Below are positions 15,772 to 26,119 of a DNA stretch of 64,000 nucleotides, piece after piece (position 1 is the first letter of the stretch; every line of letters starts with the position of its first letter). The notes under the pieces were generated by a model. That model ran no database searches. It was not told the DNA's origin and saw nothing but the letters and a program-made list of their open reading frames with translations. The translations under genes and the position numbers were made by a program. Where the stretch lies: NCBI GenBank assembly GCA_015493525.1, contig WGCY01000037.1, positions 1 through 64,000 on the forward strand. The letters run 5' to 3'. Source of the DNA: Bacteroidales bacterium. Lineage in GTDB: Bacteria; Bacteroidota; Bacteroidia; Bacteroidales; F082.

Positions 15772-16200
15772 TTAGCTGGCAAGGGCATTCTTTACTGCTT
15801 TCATCAGGACACTTTTGGTTTTCACACCGACAAATTTCTTGACGATTTTACCCTCTTTGAAAATAAGAATTGTAGGAATATTACGAATACCCAGCTCTGT
15901 AGCCACGCGCTGGTTGTGCTGTACATCGAACTTGCAGATTTTAGCCTGGTTGCTGATCTCTTCGGCAAGTTCGCTGACCACCGGCCCCTGAATTTTACAG
16001 GGAGTACACCATTCGGCCCAAAAGTCCACCAGGCTGACCCCTTTGGCAACCTGTTTTTTAAAGGTGGCGTCGGTCAGGATAACCAACTTGTCGCTCACAG
16101 GAGCTTTTGACATGGCCGCCACCATTTTGTAACGGCGGTAAAATGTAAATACAATAACTAAGAAAAAAATACCGAAAATAATCCAGAAATACGTGTTCAT
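15772..16200 (-). CDS. Membrane-anchored thioredoxin-like protein
   Basis: 142 residues. One N-terminal membrane segment (YFWIIFGIFFLVIVFTFY) is followed by RRYK and a thioredoxin domain with active site WCTPC in LVDFWAEWCTPCKI and the cis-proline segment RNIPTILIF. WCTPC differs from the WCGPC of classical thioredoxin. The positive residues after the membrane segment suggest a cytoplasmic domain, but this is not certain. Its ATG overlaps the stop of the preceding thioredoxin gene by 4 bases, so the two are translated together and may form a relay. Confidence 0.9.
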   Translation of the reverse strand: MNTYFWIIFGIFFLVIVFTFYRRYKMVAAMSKAPVSDKLVILTDATFKKQVAKGVSLVDFWAEWCTPCKIQGPVVSELAEEISNQAKICKFDVQHNQRVATELGIRNIPTILIFKEGKIVKKFVGVKTKSVLMKAVKNALAS

Positions 16201-16520
16201 TGAATTTGTTGTTTGATTTGGTTGATTAAATACGCTTTGCTTTGAATACCCGGCATTTGCATAACCACACTGCCTTCGCTCATCAACAGGAAAAAAGGGA
16301 TATTGCGTACACCAAAGCGGTCGGCCAGCAAGCGGTTGTCGCTGACGTTGATTTTGCCAATGTTCAGTTTGTCGCCAAACAGGCCGGCCAGCTCTTCGTA
16401 AACTTTATCCTGGACGGTGCAGGCAGTACACCACTCCGCCCAAAAATCCACCAGCCACAAACCGGTATTCAGATACCTTTCCCAATTAACAAAATTAATA
16501 TTCACAAAGCCTTTTCCCAT
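16197..16520 (-). CDS. Thioredoxin family protein
   Basis: 107 residues, a single thioredoxin domain with active site WCTACT in LVDFWAEWCTACTVQD and cis-proline segment RNIPFFLLM. No signal or membrane segment. WCTAC is unusual: the proline that sets the redox potential of thioredoxin (CGPC) is replaced by Ala. First gene of a pair with the membrane-anchored thioredoxin. A promoter box ends only about 8 bases before the ATG, so the transcript would be nearly leaderless. A role in thiol homeostasis is inferred. Confidence 0.88.
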   Translation of the reverse strand: MGKGFVNINFVNWERYLNTGLWLVDFWAEWCTACTVQDKVYEELAGLFGDKLNIGKINVSDNRLLADRFGVRNIPFFLLMSEGSVVMQMPGIQSKAYLINQIKQQIQ

Positions 16521-19629: not shown

Positions 19630-19887
19630 AATAGCAGAAACGCCTTATCCAAGGTAAAGTTTTTCAGACAATTTGAAAAGATACTTCATTTCCGCCGCGA
19701 TTCCATCGAAGCCTATTTTGCCCGGTTAAGACAATCTGTCTCTCCGTTACAAAAGGGAACAACCCTGCTCCTTCGCTCTTTTATTAAAAGACGTTTACAG
19801 AAACGCTCAGAACCTTATAAAGCTCTCTGTGAGAATAACACAGAAGATATTGCCTATTTCTTTCGAAGCAGGAAACCGGAAGGTTAA
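19630..19887 (+). pseudogene. Start-less open frame, likely gene remnant
   Basis: From 19630 an open frame of 85 codons without ATG runs to TAA at 19885-19887. It reads KFFRQFEKILHFRRDSIEAY, then FARLRQSVSPLQKG, ending AYFFRSRKPEG. The codon use looks like real coding sequence (basic, helical). No family is recognised; it may be the 3' end of a lost regulator or recombinase. It touches the end of the rhodanese gene on the other strand. Confidence 0.4.
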
Positions 19888-20522
19888 CAACCTCCTGCTG
19901 CCACAGCTGCCTTTCTTTTCCTGCGGACGATAACCGGTTTTTTCATTTTTTGGGTAGTTGTTGCAGGTACGTTTTTGCTGCTGGCCACTACGGCATAATT
20001 AAAACGGGGAATGCCCGTCAGGTAACTGTTGTCGTTTTTGGTTTCCGCCAGATTATCCTTGTGGGCCTTGTAGTAGCCGTAACCGCCTGCCAGGTATTTG
20101 ACATTGGAAAACCCGACCATACGAAACCACATCCAGGGGCCATTGGCCTGCAATGGGCCATTACCGTAAAGGACTACCGTTACGTTTTTACCGGCGAGGG
20201 CTTTCAGGTGACGGATATTCTTCTTTTTGGTTAAATCAAAAGCCGAAATATTTTCCGCCCCGGGGATATGCCCGCGACTGAACACAAACTTGTTCCGAAT
20301 GTCAATCAGGACCACTTTCGGATGGGTTTTGTCAAGGACGTCCGGCAGTTGCCAGGGATAAAAGCAATTGGTTTTGTTTTGCAGCATCTGTACACTTTCC
20401 GCCATGTTTAGTTTGTATTTAAACCTGGGCCGGTGCAAGGTCAGAAAGCCGATGACAATAACCAGGACAAAAAGAATAATTGTTATCAGTGTTTTTTGGG
20501 GATTTGACTCGTGTACATGCAT
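19884..20522 (-). CDS. Membrane-anchored rhodanese-fold protein lacking the loop cysteine, C-terminal GGC tail
   Basis: 212 residues. N-terminal membrane anchor (TLITIILFVLVIVIGFLTLH), then a rhodanese domain (VVLIDIRNKFVFSRGHIPGA; YLAGGYGYY). The active-site loop reads LYGNGPLQA (about residues 118-126) where rhodaneses have a catalytic Cys, so normal sulfurtransferase chemistry at that position is not possible. The protein ends VIVRRKRKAAVAAGGC with Cys212 as the last residue; the only other Cys is 53. The next gene upstream ends in the same tail. Last gene of the psr-yeeE-rhodanese operon. A role as a sulfur carrier is inference. Confidence 0.85.
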   Translation of the reverse strand: MHVHESNPQKTLITIILFVLVIVIGFLTLHRPRFKYKLNMAESVQMLQNKTNCFYPWQLPDVLDKTHPKVVLIDIRNKFVFSRGHIPGAENISAFDLTKKKNIRHLKALAGKNVTVVLYGNGPLQANGPWMWFRMVGFSNVKYLAGGYGYYKAHKDNLAETKNDNSYLTGIPRFNYAVVASSKNVPATTTQKMKKPVIVRRKRKAAVAAGGC

Positions 20523-20558
20523 TTTTCGGTTCTTTTTGAAATGAATAAAACTAATGGA

Positions 20559-21173
20559 CTAACAGCCTCCTGCCGCTACGGCCGCTTTTTTCTTGCGATG
20601 GATAACCACTTTTACCTTTTTTGAGACAGTGGATTTCTCTACTTTGGCACCTGTGAAATAGAGCCGTGCCCCCTTACGAAATTCATACTCTTCAAAGGCA
20701 GTATAAGGTTCACTTTCTCCGGGTTCTTTCGGCTGGATAATGGTCTCTATCCAGCGATTTAGCCCACCTTTCATAACGTACATATTCTTGAATCCCAATC
20801 GTTTGGCCAACACCCATTCCTGGTCGGCTTTGATACCATCGTCAGAGATGAAAACGATTTTTATTCCCGGAATACCAAAGTAATCGTTGGAAGAGGGAGC
20901 CATCAAGCTGTCCGGCGGAATATTGATGGCATTGGGAAGGGAGAATTTGGCAAATTCTTCGGGTGACCTGACATCCAGTATTTCCAGCGAAGGGTCTTTC
21001 TGAATAATCATCCTGGCCACCTGATCGGTGGTTACAAAGCGGCTGGGCTGAATTATTTCCCACAGCAGCTTATCCGCGTTAATTTGCTTATAATCTGTTT
21101 GTTTCTTAAGAAAGAATGTTCCTGCAGCCAGTATCAGCATCAAGATAGTCAGTAAAAAATAATTCCTGTTCAT
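20559..21173 (-). CDS. Membrane-anchored rhodanese-fold protein whose only cysteine is the C-terminal residue
   Basis: 204 residues from MNRNYFLLTI at 21173, chosen because the membrane anchor (YFLLTILMLILAAGTFFL) starts here and the gene then follows the YeeE gene by 4 bases. The rhodanese domain is clear (LEILDVRSPEEFAKFSLPNA; RLGFKNMYVMKGGLNRW). The active loop is ISDDGIKA (about residues 109-116), without Cys. The tail is VVIHRKKKAAVAAGGC. Cys204 is the sole cysteine of the protein. SoxY carries its substrate on a mobile C-terminal GGC motif; by analogy this tail could carry a persulfide. Periplasmic location is inferred from the anchor. Confidence 0.87.
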   Translation of the reverse strand: MNRNYFLLTILMLILAAGTFFLKKQTDYKQINADKLLWEIIQPSRFVTTDQVARMIIQKDPSLEILDVRSPEEFAKFSLPNAINIPPDSLMAPSSNDYFGIPGIKIVFISDDGIKADQEWVLAKRLGFKNMYVMKGGLNRWIETIIQPKEPGESEPYTAFEEYEFRKGARLYFTGAKVEKSTVSKKVKVVIHRKKKAAVAAGGC

Positions 21174-21177
21174 AATC

Positions 21178-21780
21178 TTAGAATTTATAATCTTTGATTC
21201 TTTTTCTAACCTTCTTCTCAATTAGCCAGGAAACCCAAAAGGCGACAAGGGCAATAACGGTAAATCCAAATGCCCACCAGGGGGCACTAATACCGGTTAC
21301 ATCCGTAAGTGTTGCATTTCCAAGGTTTCCTTTGTAGTAAAAGCCTTCAATATAGGGAAACACTTCGGCGAAGAAAAATATCCCGATAAAAAGGCCGACA
21401 GCAAATACCAGGGCATCCAGTTTACCGATAACAATGGCCGTGAAACTTGTCCCGGGACAAAACCCTCCGATAATAAATCCAATCCCCATGACAACTCCTC
21501 CCACAATCATGGAAGGCAGAAAGGTAGGTAGAATAAAAATTTTGGAAAGGTCAAGCCAACCAAAATAGTTGAAGTATAGCAAGCCAACCATGGCCACGAT
21601 AACGGCGGTAAAAAACACCCGCAACACAACGAAATTATAACCATAAAAGACACCGGCAAGATTTCGGGAGGAAGAAAAGCCCGAGGCTTCCAATAAAAAT
21701 CCAAAGGCGATACCAATTAAAACAGCGAAGACGAGATTCCAATCACCGGAAATCAAGCCATTAGGAAATAGAGGTCCCAT
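21178..21780 (-). CDS. YeeE/YedE family sulfur transporter, half-size, copy 2
   Basis: 200 residues with about five membrane segments (e.g. LVFAVLIGIAFGFLLEASG, MIVGGVVMGIGFIIGGFCPG, LVFAVGLFIGIFFFAEVFP). The conserved Cys motif is GGFCPGTSFTA, and the first segment carries LEASGFSSSRNLAGVFYGY. YeeE/YedE (TsuA) proteins import thiosulfate or related sulfur compounds through relays of Cys residues. Half-size members usually occur as pairs, as here with the gene just upstream. It lies between that partner and the two tail-cysteine rhodaneses. Confidence 0.9.
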   Translation of the reverse strand: MGPLFPNGLISGDWNLVFAVLIGIAFGFLLEASGFSSSRNLAGVFYGYNFVVLRVFFTAVIVAMVGLLYFNYFGWLDLSKIFILPTFLPSMIVGGVVMGIGFIIGGFCPGTSFTAIVIGKLDALVFAVGLFIGIFFFAEVFPYIEGFYYKGNLGNATLTDVTGISAPWWAFGFTVIALVAFWVSWLIEKKVRKRIKDYKF

Positions 21781-21809: not shown

Positions 21810-22343
21810 TTATGTCCACAGTTTTCTAAACAACCAGGCAAAAAGATAGGCGGAGGCAAAAATGAGCAGCATAACCATGACCCCTCCAAAAGAAAAAGTT
21901 GAACTTCCGCTAAGAGCAGCGCCACTGGTACAACCACGTCCCAACCGCGTACCAAATCCCCACAAAATTCCTCCTATCAAAGCAACAAGGAGTCTTCTTC
22001 TGGAGGTAATATTCGGGCCATGTTCTACAAAGGGTTTTCTAACCCTTTTAAAAATAATACCCGACAAAAATGCGCCGATAAAAACACCCAAGACTTCAAA
22101 TACCAGCCAGCTATCCATGGGTGAACGACCCTCCTTAATATATTGACCATAATAGGGATGGGCCTTTGCCGCCGTGGGACTAATAATGTGGGCTGCTTCA
22201 ACAACGGTATCTTTTACCGCGCCACTGATTCCCAGTTCGCGTCCGGAAATAAAAATAGTAACAATCATTAATAGCCCCATCAGAACACCCCCGAGATAGG
22301 GATTTATGTAATGGGTACCGTTATTGAGATTAGATTTTTTCAT
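21810..22343 (-). CDS. YeeE/YedE family sulfur transporter, half-size, copy 1
   Basis: 177 residues from MKKSNLNNGTHY at 22343, preferred over an ATG 18 codons upstream that would overlap the psrC end. Membrane segments include LGGVLMGLLMIVTIFISG, WLVFEVLGVFIGAFLSGIIF and MVMLLIFASAYLFAWLF. Signature motif GRGCTSGAALSG with the conserved Cys. Pairs with copy 2, 29 bases downstream, to form a two-part transporter. The link to psrABC and rhodaneses points to thiosulfate, sulfane sulfur or polysulfide as cargo. Confidence 0.9.
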   Translation of the reverse strand: MKKSNLNNGTHYINPYLGGVLMGLLMIVTIFISGRELGISGAVKDTVVEAAHIISPTAAKAHPYYGQYIKEGRSPMDSWLVFEVLGVFIGAFLSGIIFKRVRKPFVEHGPNITSRRRLLVALIGGILWGFGTRLGRGCTSGAALSGSSTFSFGGVMVMLLIFASAYLFAWLFRKLWT

Positions 22344-22365
22344 TGTCCTATATTTTTTATACTTA

Positions 22366-23307
22366 TTAATACAAAAACCGTGTAATTTGCCCTGCATCTA
22401 CCATGACAAAACGGAAAACCAGTCCGCCAAACAAAATCAGGAGCGGTGGCAGCCAGGCAGGAACATGAAACCCCCTCAGCTCCATAGCCTCCAGTGTAGC
22501 CGGGAAAACAAGTCCCAAAATGACCACGAACACCCAAAAGGTAACCGTAAACTCCCCACCGAGAAACAAAGCGGCTGCTTCATTTTTAACGGCTGTTCCG
22601 GCAAGAAAACCCATAAAAAGATGAACGATAAAGAAAAGTTCCACAAGAATGAGAACCAGGTCAATACGGCTGATAGTCTTCCGCTCGTGTTCGTTTTTTG
22701 AAATCCATAAAATGGCCGCCAGCCCTGTGGAAAGTCCTGAAGTAAGAAACAACGGGCCGAGGATGGAGGTATTCCACAACGGACGGGCATTAAATGCCGA
22801 TAAAAGGATACCGGTGTAAACCCCAAGGATAATGGACAATACCATCATTATCCAGGCAAAAGGCACGCGGTTTTCAATAACCCAGGCTTCAAACCGGTCG
22901 AGGATTTTCAGTTTCCAGTCCCAGCCTGGGAACATCTCCTTCATGTAACTGGCTACCCACACAAACGACAACGGCGTAATGGCCATCAGCGTCCAGGCAC
23001 CCCACGACATGGGCGAGGTAAAACGAATAGTGGTGTACAACTGCCAAAAATAGAGTTTGTGGTGCAGGTCATAAAACAAAGCCAACAGGCCGATAACCAA
23101 CGCAATGGGAGCAATAATGGGAGCCCATTTCACGGTGGCGGGCATCTCTTTTTCTTTCCCTTTCACCACAAAATATCCGGCAAAAAATAAAATTCCGGCA
23201 GCCAGTCCTCCCAGAAAAAGATACAGGGCAATGGGCCAGTGCCAAATGTTCAGGTACGGGTCGATGTGGGGAATATGTCGTCCGCTGGCAAAAATTTCTT
23301 CTTTCAT
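22366..23307 (-). CDS. psrC: Polysulfide/thiosulfate reductase membrane subunit (NrfD/PsrC family)
   Basis: 313 residues with eight or nine membrane segments, starting MKEEIFASGRHIPHIDPYL. NrfD/PsrC subunits bind menaquinol in the membrane and pass electrons to the Fe-S subunit. Length and start motif (IWHWPIALYLFLGGLAAG) are typical. It follows psrB by 20 bases in the same operon. Psr, Phs and Srr complexes share this subunit type, so the substrate (polysulfide, thiosulfate or another oxyanion) is not settled by it. Confidence 0.92.
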   Translation of the reverse strand: MKEEIFASGRHIPHIDPYLNIWHWPIALYLFLGGLAAGILFFAGYFVVKGKEKEMPATVKWAPIIAPIALVIGLLALFYDLHHKLYFWQLYTTIRFTSPMSWGAWTLMAITPLSFVWVASYMKEMFPGWDWKLKILDRFEAWVIENRVPFAWIMMVLSIILGVYTGILLSAFNARPLWNTSILGPLFLTSGLSTGLAAILWISKNEHERKTISRIDLVLILVELFFIVHLFMGFLAGTAVKNEAAALFLGGEFTVTFWVFVVILGLVFPATLEAMELRGFHVPAWLPPLLILFGGLVFRFVMVDAGQITRFLY

Positions 23308-23327: not shown

Positions 23328-23861
23328 TTACATCAGAAAATACAATTGCGGTTTGGTTCCTGCTTCGGGAGCCAGCACTCTCCATTTACGGTCTTTCATG
23401 GCGAGGGAAACATCCGAATTGGGATCTTCCAGATCGCCGAAATGGAGGCAATGGGTGGGACACACATCCACGCAGGCCGGATTTTGCCCTTTTTCCACGC
23501 GGTGGATACAAAAAGTACATTTGTCCACGTACCCATCCGGATGAGGATAACGGGCATCGTAGGGGCACGACTCGATACAGGCACCGCAACCGATACACTC
23601 GTCATGGGTAACCAGCACAATGCCCCCTTCGGCAATGTGGCTGGCACCTGTAGGACAGCATCTTACACAAGGTGCATTGTCGCAGTGGTTACAACGTTCG
23701 GAGCGAAACTCCATTTCAACTACCGGATAGGTACCACTCACATTTTCCACAATCCAGTCGCGGCAATATCCGTGGGGAACATTATTTTCTGTCTGGCAGG
23801 CAACCACGCAGTCGCTGCAGCCGACACACTTTTTGGTATCGATGGCCATGGCGTATCTCAT
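23328..23861 (-). CDS. psrB: Iron-sulfur electron-transfer subunit (PsrB/PhsB family)
   Basis: 177 residues with sixteen cysteines arranged for four [4Fe-4S] clusters: CVGCSDCVVACQTEN, CNHCDNAPCVRCCPTGA, CIGCGACIESCPYDARY, and CTFCIHRVEKGQNPACVDVC. It passes electrons from the NrfD-type subunit to the molybdopterin subunit. The start at 23861 is fixed by a 4-base ATGA overlap with psrA. No signal peptide, as expected when it is exported bound to the Tat substrate PsrA. Confidence 0.95.
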   Translation of the reverse strand: MRYAMAIDTKKCVGCSDCVVACQTENNVPHGYCRDWIVENVSGTYPVVEMEFRSERCNHCDNAPCVRCCPTGASHIAEGGIVLVTHDECIGCGACIESCPYDARYPHPDGYVDKCTFCIHRVEKGQNPACVDVCPTHCLHFGDLEDPNSDVSLAMKDRKWRVLAPEAGTKPQLYFLM

Positions 23862-26119
23862 GCTTTAACCTCCTCTCTGTTTTTTCTGGGATTTTCTTTT
23901 AAAAATGTAACAAAATTGCTTCGCATACCTGTACCTCCCATAACAGGATCTTCATAAATTTTTGAAACGAGTTCCGAGTCGCTGGCCCCGTGCCCAAAAG
24001 CACGGGTAAGCTTTGTATCGGTTTGGCCAAAGCCATGGACCATGTACACCGAATCCCATCGGATACGTTCGGTAACCCGTACCTTTACCGGGAAAGAAGA
24101 GATGATGCCATCCTGGTTTTTCAGCCATACTTCCTGTCCGTTTTTCAGCTCCCACAAATCGGCTACTTTGGGGTTTACCCAAACGTTGTTCTCCTTTTTC
24201 AGGTCCCACAGGTTGTGGTTGTTGACCGTACGGCTGAAAGTGTGCATGGGGGCACGTCCGTAATTCAGCCGGTAATAGCCTTCGGGTGGCTCAGGGTGAT
24301 GGGTATAATCGGGCAGCGGTTCGAAACCTTCGGCTGCCAGCTCGGTGGAATAAAGCTCAATTTTCCCCGTATTGGTATTAAATTCATAGTCGGGCAAACC
24401 CTGCAGGTTGTACAGGTCTTTGTACTCGCGTGGAAACTTCTTCACGCCGATACGTTTCATTTCTTCTAAAGATGACCCCACTTTTTTTAATTGCCAGTCG
24501 AGCATTTCTTCGATGTTGTCCCACTTAAAATAATCATCAAGTCCCAGTTTGTGTGCCAGTTGTTTGGCTATCCACCATCCGGGTTTCGTGTCGTACTTAG
24601 GCTTTGCTGCCGGCATGCGCAAGGCAATGTAGGGTTCGCGATGGGGTGAAGTACGAATGGGGTCATACCTTTCGAGATAGGTACACTCGGGAAGTACCAC
24701 ATCGGCATAGCCGGTAATGTCCATGGGCATGGTGTCGATGACCACCAGAAAATCAAGGTTATGAATGGCTTCCAGTGTTTTTTGCTGTTCGGGCAACGAT
24801 GCCATGAGGTTTGTCCCATACACAATCCATCCGTGCATACGGTAGTCCATATCGGGATTGGGAATGGAAGCATAACAGATTCCTGAAGAAAGCACTTCGG
24901 TAACGAGTTTATATTTGTCTTTGGGGAAAGCATCGCGCCAGGAGCGTTTGGGTTTGGGATAGGGCGGATAAGGATAGTTGGGGAGATGTACCTTTTCGGG
25001 ATTGTAAAATCCTCCCCTGCGTCCCCACGAGCCCAACAGTGCATTCAGGATGGCAATGGCCCTGGAACGCTGTGTATCGTCGCCATACCAGGTAACATGG
25101 CGGCCCGGATGGACAATTACCGAAGGTGCTGCAGCGGCCATTTCTCTAGCCGTGCGCCGGATAACTTCGGGCTCAATCGTTGTAATGCCATAAGCCCATT
25201 CGGGCGTTTTGTCTTTGACGTGCGCTTTTAATTCATCAAATCCGAAGGCATATTTTTTTAAATAAGGCTCATCATAAAGCTTTTCCTCAATAATTACGTT
25301 TATCCAGGCAAGCAACAGGGCCAGATCGGTAGCCGGTTTGATGGGAAGCCAGTATTTGGAGTGCGAAGCGGCAGTGGAAAAGCGCGGGTCAACAGTAATG
25401 ATGGTGGCTCCGTTGTCAAGGACCTGCGACATCTCCTGAATCTGCCCGTTGTGCATATTTTCACCAATATGCGAGCCAATAAGGACCAGACATTTTGTGT
25501 CGCGTATGTCAGTCCTTTCGGGCGACAATACGCCTTCGCCATAAGTAGCCGTGAAGCCTACCTCACGCGGGCCCCGGCACTGGGCAAAGGAGGGTGCCGT
25601 GATATTCGGCGTACCGTAAGCTTTCGCCAGGTGGGTCATAAGTTTTCCACCGGTACCGTGTGAAAAGAGTGCCAGGCTTTCGGGGCCATAATCCTTGCGG
25701 AGCTTTTCCATTTTGGAAGCCACCAGGTTTAATGCCTCTTCCCAGCTGGCCTTACGGAAATACTGGTATCCGTTTTTGTCGATTTCACGAATCAACGGGG
25801 TACGCAGCCGGTCTTCGTCGTTGTACATACCAACGCCGCCGGTTCCTCTCGGACAAAGGCGGCCCTGACAATGCGGGTCCTCTTTGTTCCCGATAATTTT
25901 CCTGAGATTTTTTTTCTTGTCAACATAAGACCAACCGGCGCATTTCCAAAAACAAACTTCGCAATAAGTGGGGGTGGCTTTCATGTTCTCGTCGCTGACA
26001 GGTTCCTGTTCGTTGCTGTCGAACAGGCTGAGCCCCTTTACATTTAAGGTGTGTAAGCCAAGGGCTGCCGCCCCGGCACCTGCCGCCGAGATTTTGATGA
26101 ATTGACGTCTTGTTTTCAT
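23858..26119 (-). CDS. psrA: Molybdopterin oxidoreductase catalytic subunit (PsrA/PhsA family)
   Basis: 753 residues. Tat signal RRQFIKISAAGAGAAALGLH at the N-terminus, so it works outside the cytoplasmic membrane. A [4Fe-4S] site CEVCFWKCAGW followed by CPRGTGGVGM, and bis-MGD-binding segments including GSHIGENMHNGQI and HPGRHVTWYG. A Cys in SFAQCRGPREVG is the likely Mo ligand. The length fits PsrA and PhsA (about 760) and is too short for TtrA. Genes for a membrane and Fe-S subunit, YeeE transporters and rhodanese-fold proteins follow, which favours polysulfide or thiosulfate as substrate. Confidence 0.92.
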   Translation of the reverse strand: MKTRRQFIKISAAGAGAAALGLHTLNVKGLSLFDSNEQEPVSDENMKATPTYCEVCFWKCAGWSYVDKKKNLRKIIGNKEDPHCQGRLCPRGTGGVGMYNDEDRLRTPLIREIDKNGYQYFRKASWEEALNLVASKMEKLRKDYGPESLALFSHGTGGKLMTHLAKAYGTPNITAPSFAQCRGPREVGFTATYGEGVLSPERTDIRDTKCLVLIGSHIGENMHNGQIQEMSQVLDNGATIITVDPRFSTAASHSKYWLPIKPATDLALLLAWINVIIEEKLYDEPYLKKYAFGFDELKAHVKDKTPEWAYGITTIEPEVIRRTAREMAAAAPSVIVHPGRHVTWYGDDTQRSRAIAILNALLGSWGRRGGFYNPEKVHLPNYPYPPYPKPKRSWRDAFPKDKYKLVTEVLSSGICYASIPNPDMDYRMHGWIVYGTNLMASLPEQQKTLEAIHNLDFLVVIDTMPMDITGYADVVLPECTYLERYDPIRTSPHREPYIALRMPAAKPKYDTKPGWWIAKQLAHKLGLDDYFKWDNIEEMLDWQLKKVGSSLEEMKRIGVKKFPREYKDLYNLQGLPDYEFNTNTGKIELYSTELAAEGFEPLPDYTHHPEPPEGYYRLNYGRAPMHTFSRTVNNHNLWDLKKENNVWVNPKVADLWELKNGQEVWLKNQDGIISSFPVKVRVTERIRWDSVYMVHGFGQTDTKLTRAFGHGASDSELVSKIYEDPVMGGTGMRSNFVTFLKENPRKNREEVKA

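Follow-up and report, generated by a model that had tools for sequence, protein, structure and literature searches.

The C-terminal Cys tail of RhdA and RhdB, two neighbouring rhodanese-fold proteins encoded in the window (the whole analysed stretch of 64,000 nucleotides of Bacteroidales DNA), is probably, judging from sequence, an undescribed kind of sulfur-carrying arm. We consider it rather likely that both proteins are periplasmic, membrane-anchored sulfur carriers with a SoxY-like arm on a dead rhodanese, linked to YeeE and usually to PsrABC. In this reading we infer the sulfur on the Cys, the docking at YeeE and Psr, and the direction of flow.

The genes for RhdA and RhdB stand at the end of an operon in the order psrA-psrB-psrC-yeeE1-yeeE2-rhdA-rhdB, all on the minus strand (Table 1). 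The original prediction of two adjacent, N-terminally anchored rhodanese-fold proteins at these coordinates was confirmed, as the Pfam Rhodanese matches of the two ORFs (E 4.9e-15 and 1.5e-16) are well over the cut-off and each protein has one N-terminal hydrophobic helix. It had also held that the catalytic Cys is lost from the loops LYGNGPLQA and ISDDGIKA; at the column where two reference catalytic rhodaneses both have Cys, RhdA has S (FISDDGIKA) and RhdB has G (LYGNGPLQA). Likewise, the two proteins do share a nine-residue end with a final Cys, which in the 204-residue protein is the sole Cys (C204). The cores of RhdA and RhdB are only ~24% identical, while the final KAAVAAGGC is identical but written in different codons; together with the invariance of GGC in the alignments described below, this bears out the earlier view that the tail is under selection and the cores have diverged. 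The AlphaFold2 model of RhdA (pLDDT 86) comprises a confident rhodanese domain, a helix at residues 157-174 and a disordered arm at residues 175-204, and its nearest solved folds are single-domain rhodaneses. In the same genome, RhdA and RhdB were the only ORFs of more than 60 aa ending in GGC-stop among 22 of 24 matches inspected (two on one contig were left out). Three further rhodanese-domain genes of this genome lack the GGC tail and are cytoplasmic in appearance, so that RhdA and RhdB are the sole exported rhodanese-fold proteins found in it.

Table 1. Positions in the window of the operon genes, of the parts of RhdA and RhdB, and of a nearby gene pair
Feature	Position	Strand	Description
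psrA	23858..26119	-	Tat-exported molybdopterin catalytic subunit; Mo-ligand Cys conserved
psrB	23328..23861	-	4Fe-4S subunit
psrC	22366..23307	-	NrfD-type membrane subunit
yeeE1	21810..22397	-	half-size YeeE/YedE; corresponds to C-terminal part of Sulf_transp model; conserved Cys in GRGCTSG
yeeE2	21178..21780	-	half-size YeeE/YedE; corresponds to N-terminal part of Sulf_transp model; invariant Cys in GGFCPGTS; fused to rhdA in 21 relatives
rhdA	20559..21173	-	204 aa from ATG; N-terminally anchored rhodanese fold without catalytic Cys; sole Cys is C204
rhdB	19884..20522	-	212 aa; N-terminally anchored rhodanese fold without catalytic Cys; C53 and terminal C212
Rhodanese domain of RhdA (residues 49-143)	20745..21029	-	Pfam PF00581; AlphaFold2 model, pLDDT 86
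Rhodanese domain of RhdB	20064..20321	-	Pfam match
Ex-catalytic loop of RhdA (SDDGIKA)	20826..20846	-	S110 at the Cys column; alignment
Ex-catalytic loop of RhdB (GNGPLQA)	20145..20165	-	alignment
Flexible C-terminal arm of RhdA (residues 175-204)	20562..20651	-	ends KAAVAAGGC; low pLDDT in AlphaFold2 model; invariant GGC
KAAVAAGGC end of RhdB	19887..19913	-	sequence
Overlapping pair of thioredoxin-domain genes	15772-16200 and 16197-16520	-	downstream of the operon

With regard to the other genes of the operon, PsrA aligns over nearly its full length with that of Thermus thermophilus (2vpw; E 1e-192); conservation extends to the Cys aligned with chain residue 173 of 2vpw, which we take to be the Mo ligand. 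This Cys and the four N-terminal Fe-S cysteines are retained in 125-126 of 126 relatives. PsrA of the window thus has the full-length homology and the Mo-ligand Cys of the PsrA/PhsA/SreA group, within which Phs, Psr and Sre are indistinguishable from sequence (PMC8359478), so that the label Psr does not fix the substrate here. YeeE1 and YeeE2 are Sulf_transp proteins of half size, each with one conserved Cys, as in the split YeeE type (PmpAB/YedE1E2), and the Cys is kept in 168/169 YeeE1 and 176/176 YeeE2. Of the thioredoxin-domain proteins encoded downstream, one has the motif WCTPC and an N-terminal hydrophobic stretch, the other the motif WCTAC; they could be candidate reductants for persulfides.

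The system is common: of 393 genomes of the order that were sampled, 148 have RhdA. Elsewhere in the sampled class, a single family gave strong full-length matches. Named loci belong to Maribellus, Draconibacterium, Prolixibacteraceae, Lentimicrobiaceae, Flavobacteriaceae (Maribacter, Yeosuana), Cyclobacteriaceae, Ca. Neomarinimicrobiota and Ignavibacteriaceae, with cultured hosts in Maribellus, Maribacter and Yeosuana. After removal of duplicates, 156 RhdA, 122 RhdB and 21 YeeE2-RhdA fusions were compared. A Cys lies within the last three residues of 155 RhdA, 119 RhdB and all 21 fusions; 152 of the RhdA end in GGC or GGCx, and every fusion ends in GGC. The catalytic column is other than Cys in 153 RhdA, 116 RhdB and 21 fusions (Cys in 3, 6 and 0, respectively); nearly all members of the three groups thus lack the Cys with which the active-site loop of catalytic rhodaneses and sulfurtransferases begins. 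The arm Cys is the protein's only Cys in 84 RhdA and 64 RhdB, and in 16 fusions no second Cys occurs within the C-terminal 205 residues. GGC is invariant in the RhdA alignment, which was too variable for a pattern scan, and makes up three of just seven invariant columns in the RhdB alignment; the PF00581 domain was present in all 54 RhdA checked. These counts support the predicted conserved design of a dead rhodanese with a terminal-Cys arm.

Within these loci the tail is confined to the rhodanese fold. GGC or GGCx ends were found in 336 of 375 ORFs with a rhodanese profile and in 0 of 2027 non-rhodanese ORFs of at least 100 aa, the single formal match among presumed non-rhodaneses being a partial tandem rhodanese missed by the profiles. 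Chance or sequencing error as the source of the tails is rejected by these figures and by the retention of the tail across homologues. Nor was a final Cys clearly lost from an intact operon: the only RhdA without it has a frameshift near the gene end, and the other frame reads KKAVQGGCS-stop. Every tailed protein that we found is accompanied by sulfur genes. Ends in GGCE, GGCS, GGCG and GGCD also occur; this fact indicates that the thiol matters and the C-terminal carboxylate does not, and makes a carboxylate chemistry of the ThiS/MoaD type unlikely. A match to the selenoprotein TsoB was dismissed as irrelevant. At one locus the rhdB end including the tail is exactly repeated in two more tandem copies, 2391 bases apart and without the remainder of the gene (around 2634974, 2637365 and 2639756 on G004:C1).

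Many relatives have a third gene, rhdC, for a tandem rhodanese of 350-380 aa with intact CxxG loops. RhdC is usually a lipoprotein (lipobox in 20/34 tailed RhdC) and often carries the tail of RhdA and RhdB. Seven loci encode further GGC-ended exported rhodaneses with an intact catalytic Cys near psrA or a psr operon (tandem forms of 299-301 aa, single forms of 172-179 aa), whose tails are unlike those of RhdA and RhdB of their own genomes. The tailed, catalytically intact RhdC, the YeeE2-RhdA fusions and the genome-by-genome matching of tails described below go beyond the original prediction.

An N-terminal hydrophobic helix is present in 152/152 tailed RhdA and 114/116 tailed RhdB, with more positive charge before the helix than after it; counting RhdC, nearly all tailed proteins have such a helix, and 31 have a lipobox. 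In the fusions, an extra hydrophobic stretch lies between the basic end of YeeE2 and the rhodanese domain. The predicted model of a fusion was poor (pLDDT 55). From this charge pattern and the extra stretch, the arm is most likely periplasmic, on the same side of the membrane as the Tat-exported PsrA, as the anchors in the original prediction had implied.

YeeE adjoins RhdA in 159 of 159 cases, a count biased where loci were found via YeeE2 and unbiased where they were found via RhdA, and all 21 fusions include it. Among the operons with 5 kb or more of upstream sequence, Psr precedes 130 of 134 unfused and none of 16 fused ones; the invariant partner is therefore YeeE, not Psr. Thus the expected co-occurrence of GGC-ended rhodaneses with yeeE held throughout, and that with psrABC held in the unfused operons but failed in the fused ones. 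At three loci, a psr-less operon yeeE1-yeeE2-rhdA (ending in GGCE) is followed by a tail-less rhodanese-like protein, with a tail-less tandem rhodanese adjoining. The Psr-less fusions and the constancy of YeeE would fit a narrower form of the carrier reading, in which the sulfur-carrying tail serves only import of sulfur or thiosulfate by YeeE1/YeeE2, and Psr is a co-regulated consumer of the same substrate that never touches the arm; a SoxY-SoxT route is a published proposal of this kind (PMC11582611). However, besides the presence of Psr in nearly all unfused operons, the mean net charge of the Lys-rich stretch before GGC is +4.6 in Psr operons versus +1.7 in those without (p 1e-10), a comparison that ignores kinship and includes some contig-limited loci in the class without Psr. 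We regard the restriction to YeeE as unlikely, though it deserves serious consideration. The stronger basic stretch in Psr operons rather suggests that GGC serves sulfur transfer in general and the basic stretch docking at Psr.

Moreover, the tails of RhdA and RhdB match each other genome by genome. We compared the ten residues that precede GGC in 107 RhdA/RhdB pairs. Their identity is 72% between proteins of one genome, 59% when the partner is taken from the nearest relative and 33% over all pairs (p 8e-9), whereas no within-genome effect is seen for the cores of these proteins (21.1% vs 21.1%, p 0.52). Phylogeny alone is rejected as the cause by the nearest-relative comparison together with this core control. 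Residues after the Cys also agree between RhdA and RhdB in 57 of the first 60 loci. At identical tail residues the same codon is used in 53% of cases, barely above the 48% expected from codon usage; therefore selection at the peptide level maintains the match, and gene conversion as its main cause is rejected. A few loci look almost the same in their DNA and may reflect recent conversions. The simplest reading of the matching is a common dock that recognises all arms of one cell. As a further and more tentative proposal, which is possible but on balance somewhat doubtful, the GGC tail would be an exchangeable carrier tag: a genome-specific Cys peptide on two to three rhodanese-fold proteins (dead RhdA and RhdB, active RhdC and the YeeE2 fusions) with common docks on YeeE and PsrA, forming a multi-arm sulfur relay distinct from Sox and Sud.

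The matching tails could instead speak against a carrier, if RhdA and RhdB touch each other with their tails or are linked by disulfides. The terminal Cys would then be structural, the tails of RhdA, RhdB and, where present, RhdC pairing through inter-protein disulfides into a scaffold around YeeE and Psr that carries no sulfur. Touching tails would be expected to match within a genome, and in many of these proteins the tail Cys is the sole one. However, a tailed RhdA stands alone at four loci and at five of Ca. Neomarinimicrobiota, and a lone fusion at three more, with no tailed partner beside them, which makes a structural role improbable. Very improbable is a sorting or modification signal with a lipid, metal or cofactor on the Cys, in spite of the short C-terminal motif common to several exported proteins of one genome, because the tail is restricted to rhodanese-fold proteins of these loci, has no hydrophobic stretch and variable residues after the Cys, and sits on proteins that, with few exceptions, have an N-terminal helix or lipobox for anchoring or export. 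We give equally little credit to a redox or sulfide sensor gating YeeE or Psr, which a mobile arm with one reactive Cys and the signalling role of SoxT1B, another YeeE-like protein (PMC11582611), would suit, since we saw no regulator among the conserved operon genes and up to three arm copies per operon point to capacity rather than sensing.

In the carrier reading, the rhodanese domain would do no chemistry at its own loop and would act as a binding or docking platform. The terminal Cys would bear sulfane sulfur as persulfide, polysulfide or thiosulfonate, and the arm of ~30 residues, disordered, Lys-rich and hinged by Gly-Gly, would swing it between partners. The split YeeE1/YeeE2 channel, with one conserved Cys per half, would be the invariant partner, and PsrABC the second one in most operons, reducing the carried sulfur or, working backwards, making it. 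RhdC, where present, probably loads or unloads the arm. YeeE-type proteins import from the periplasm into the cytoplasm, so carriers outside more likely feed YeeE or exchange with Psr. The earlier proposal that the carrier is fed by YeeE and serves Psr was therefore right in linkage and doubtful in direction, flow from YeeE to the carrier being less likely than the reverse. Against the carrier reading, the loop Cys is retained in the few RhdA and RhdB counted above, and a search of this genome gave no clear TusA/YeeD acceptor (one sub-threshold match).

If these proteins are carriers, the rhodanese has been re-used as a scaffold with its cysteine relocated to an arm, and an exported rhodanese ending in GGC beside yeeE is a sequence marker for a sulfur route. 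Carrier models for Psr and YeeE would become testable by one point mutation. This would bear on the open problem of how Psr-type enzymes are supplied with insoluble or polymeric sulfur and how sulfur is moved through the membrane, towards these enzymes or away from them. If the proposal of an exchangeable tag is true, it would also represent a way of periplasmic sulfur handling distinct from Sox and Sud.

Finally, several known systems resemble parts of this one. The SoxY arm is C-terminal and Gly-rich and holds the sulfur-binding Cys. RhdA and RhdB share with SoxY the nature of a putative periplasmic carrier with such a Cys on a flexible arm, here a terminal Gly-Gly-Cys, and a YeeE-like transporter as proposed partner; it has been considered conceivable that the SoxY Cys hands its sulfur on to the YeeE-like SoxT, along whose cysteines it would pass (PMC11582611). 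However, SoxY does not have the rhodanese fold, whereas RhdA and RhdB match only Rhodanese in Pfam, and their operon has Psr and the YeeE halves but no sox genes. A genome search with PF13501 (SoxY) gave no match, its controls being likewise silent. Sud (Str) of Wolinella and SbdP of Aquifex are rhodaneses that bring polysulfide sulfur to Psr or sulfur reductase via a loop Cys. RhdA and RhdB are similarly exported rhodaneses linked to psrABC, but they have lost the loop Cys, and their one conserved Cys is that of the tail. DsrC is alike in having a C-terminal arm whose (pen)ultimate Cys bears sulfur, but it is cytoplasmic, of another fold and a partner of DsrAB.

With regard to the transporters PmpA/PmpB, YedE1E2, TsuA and SoxT, YeeE1/YeeE2 form two Sulf_transp halves with one conserved Cys each, as do PmpA/PmpB, whose two cysteines correspond to the two needed in TsuA (PMC11582611), and the closely similar YedE1E2 was reported as a zero-valent sulfur transporter (PMC10812762). 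We found no report in the literature of these transporters fused to or paired with GGC-tailed dead rhodaneses. In its near full-length alignment and conserved Mo-ligand Cys, PsrA resembles the catalytic subunit of T. thermophilus PsrABC. Polysulfide reductase clusters are known in Marinimicrobia, where psrABC was proposed to oxidise H2S besides reducing polysulfide (PMC5688066). In the full-text literature searched, we found no account of a rhodanese carrier that is dead or has a GGC tail, in agreement with the original prediction of an undescribed family, though a 2014 source on the Marinimicrobia clusters might list an adjacent rhodanese gene. As far as can be read from the genes, RhdA and RhdB would thus belong to a known kind, the protein-bound sulfur carriers, and what appears to be new is the architecture.
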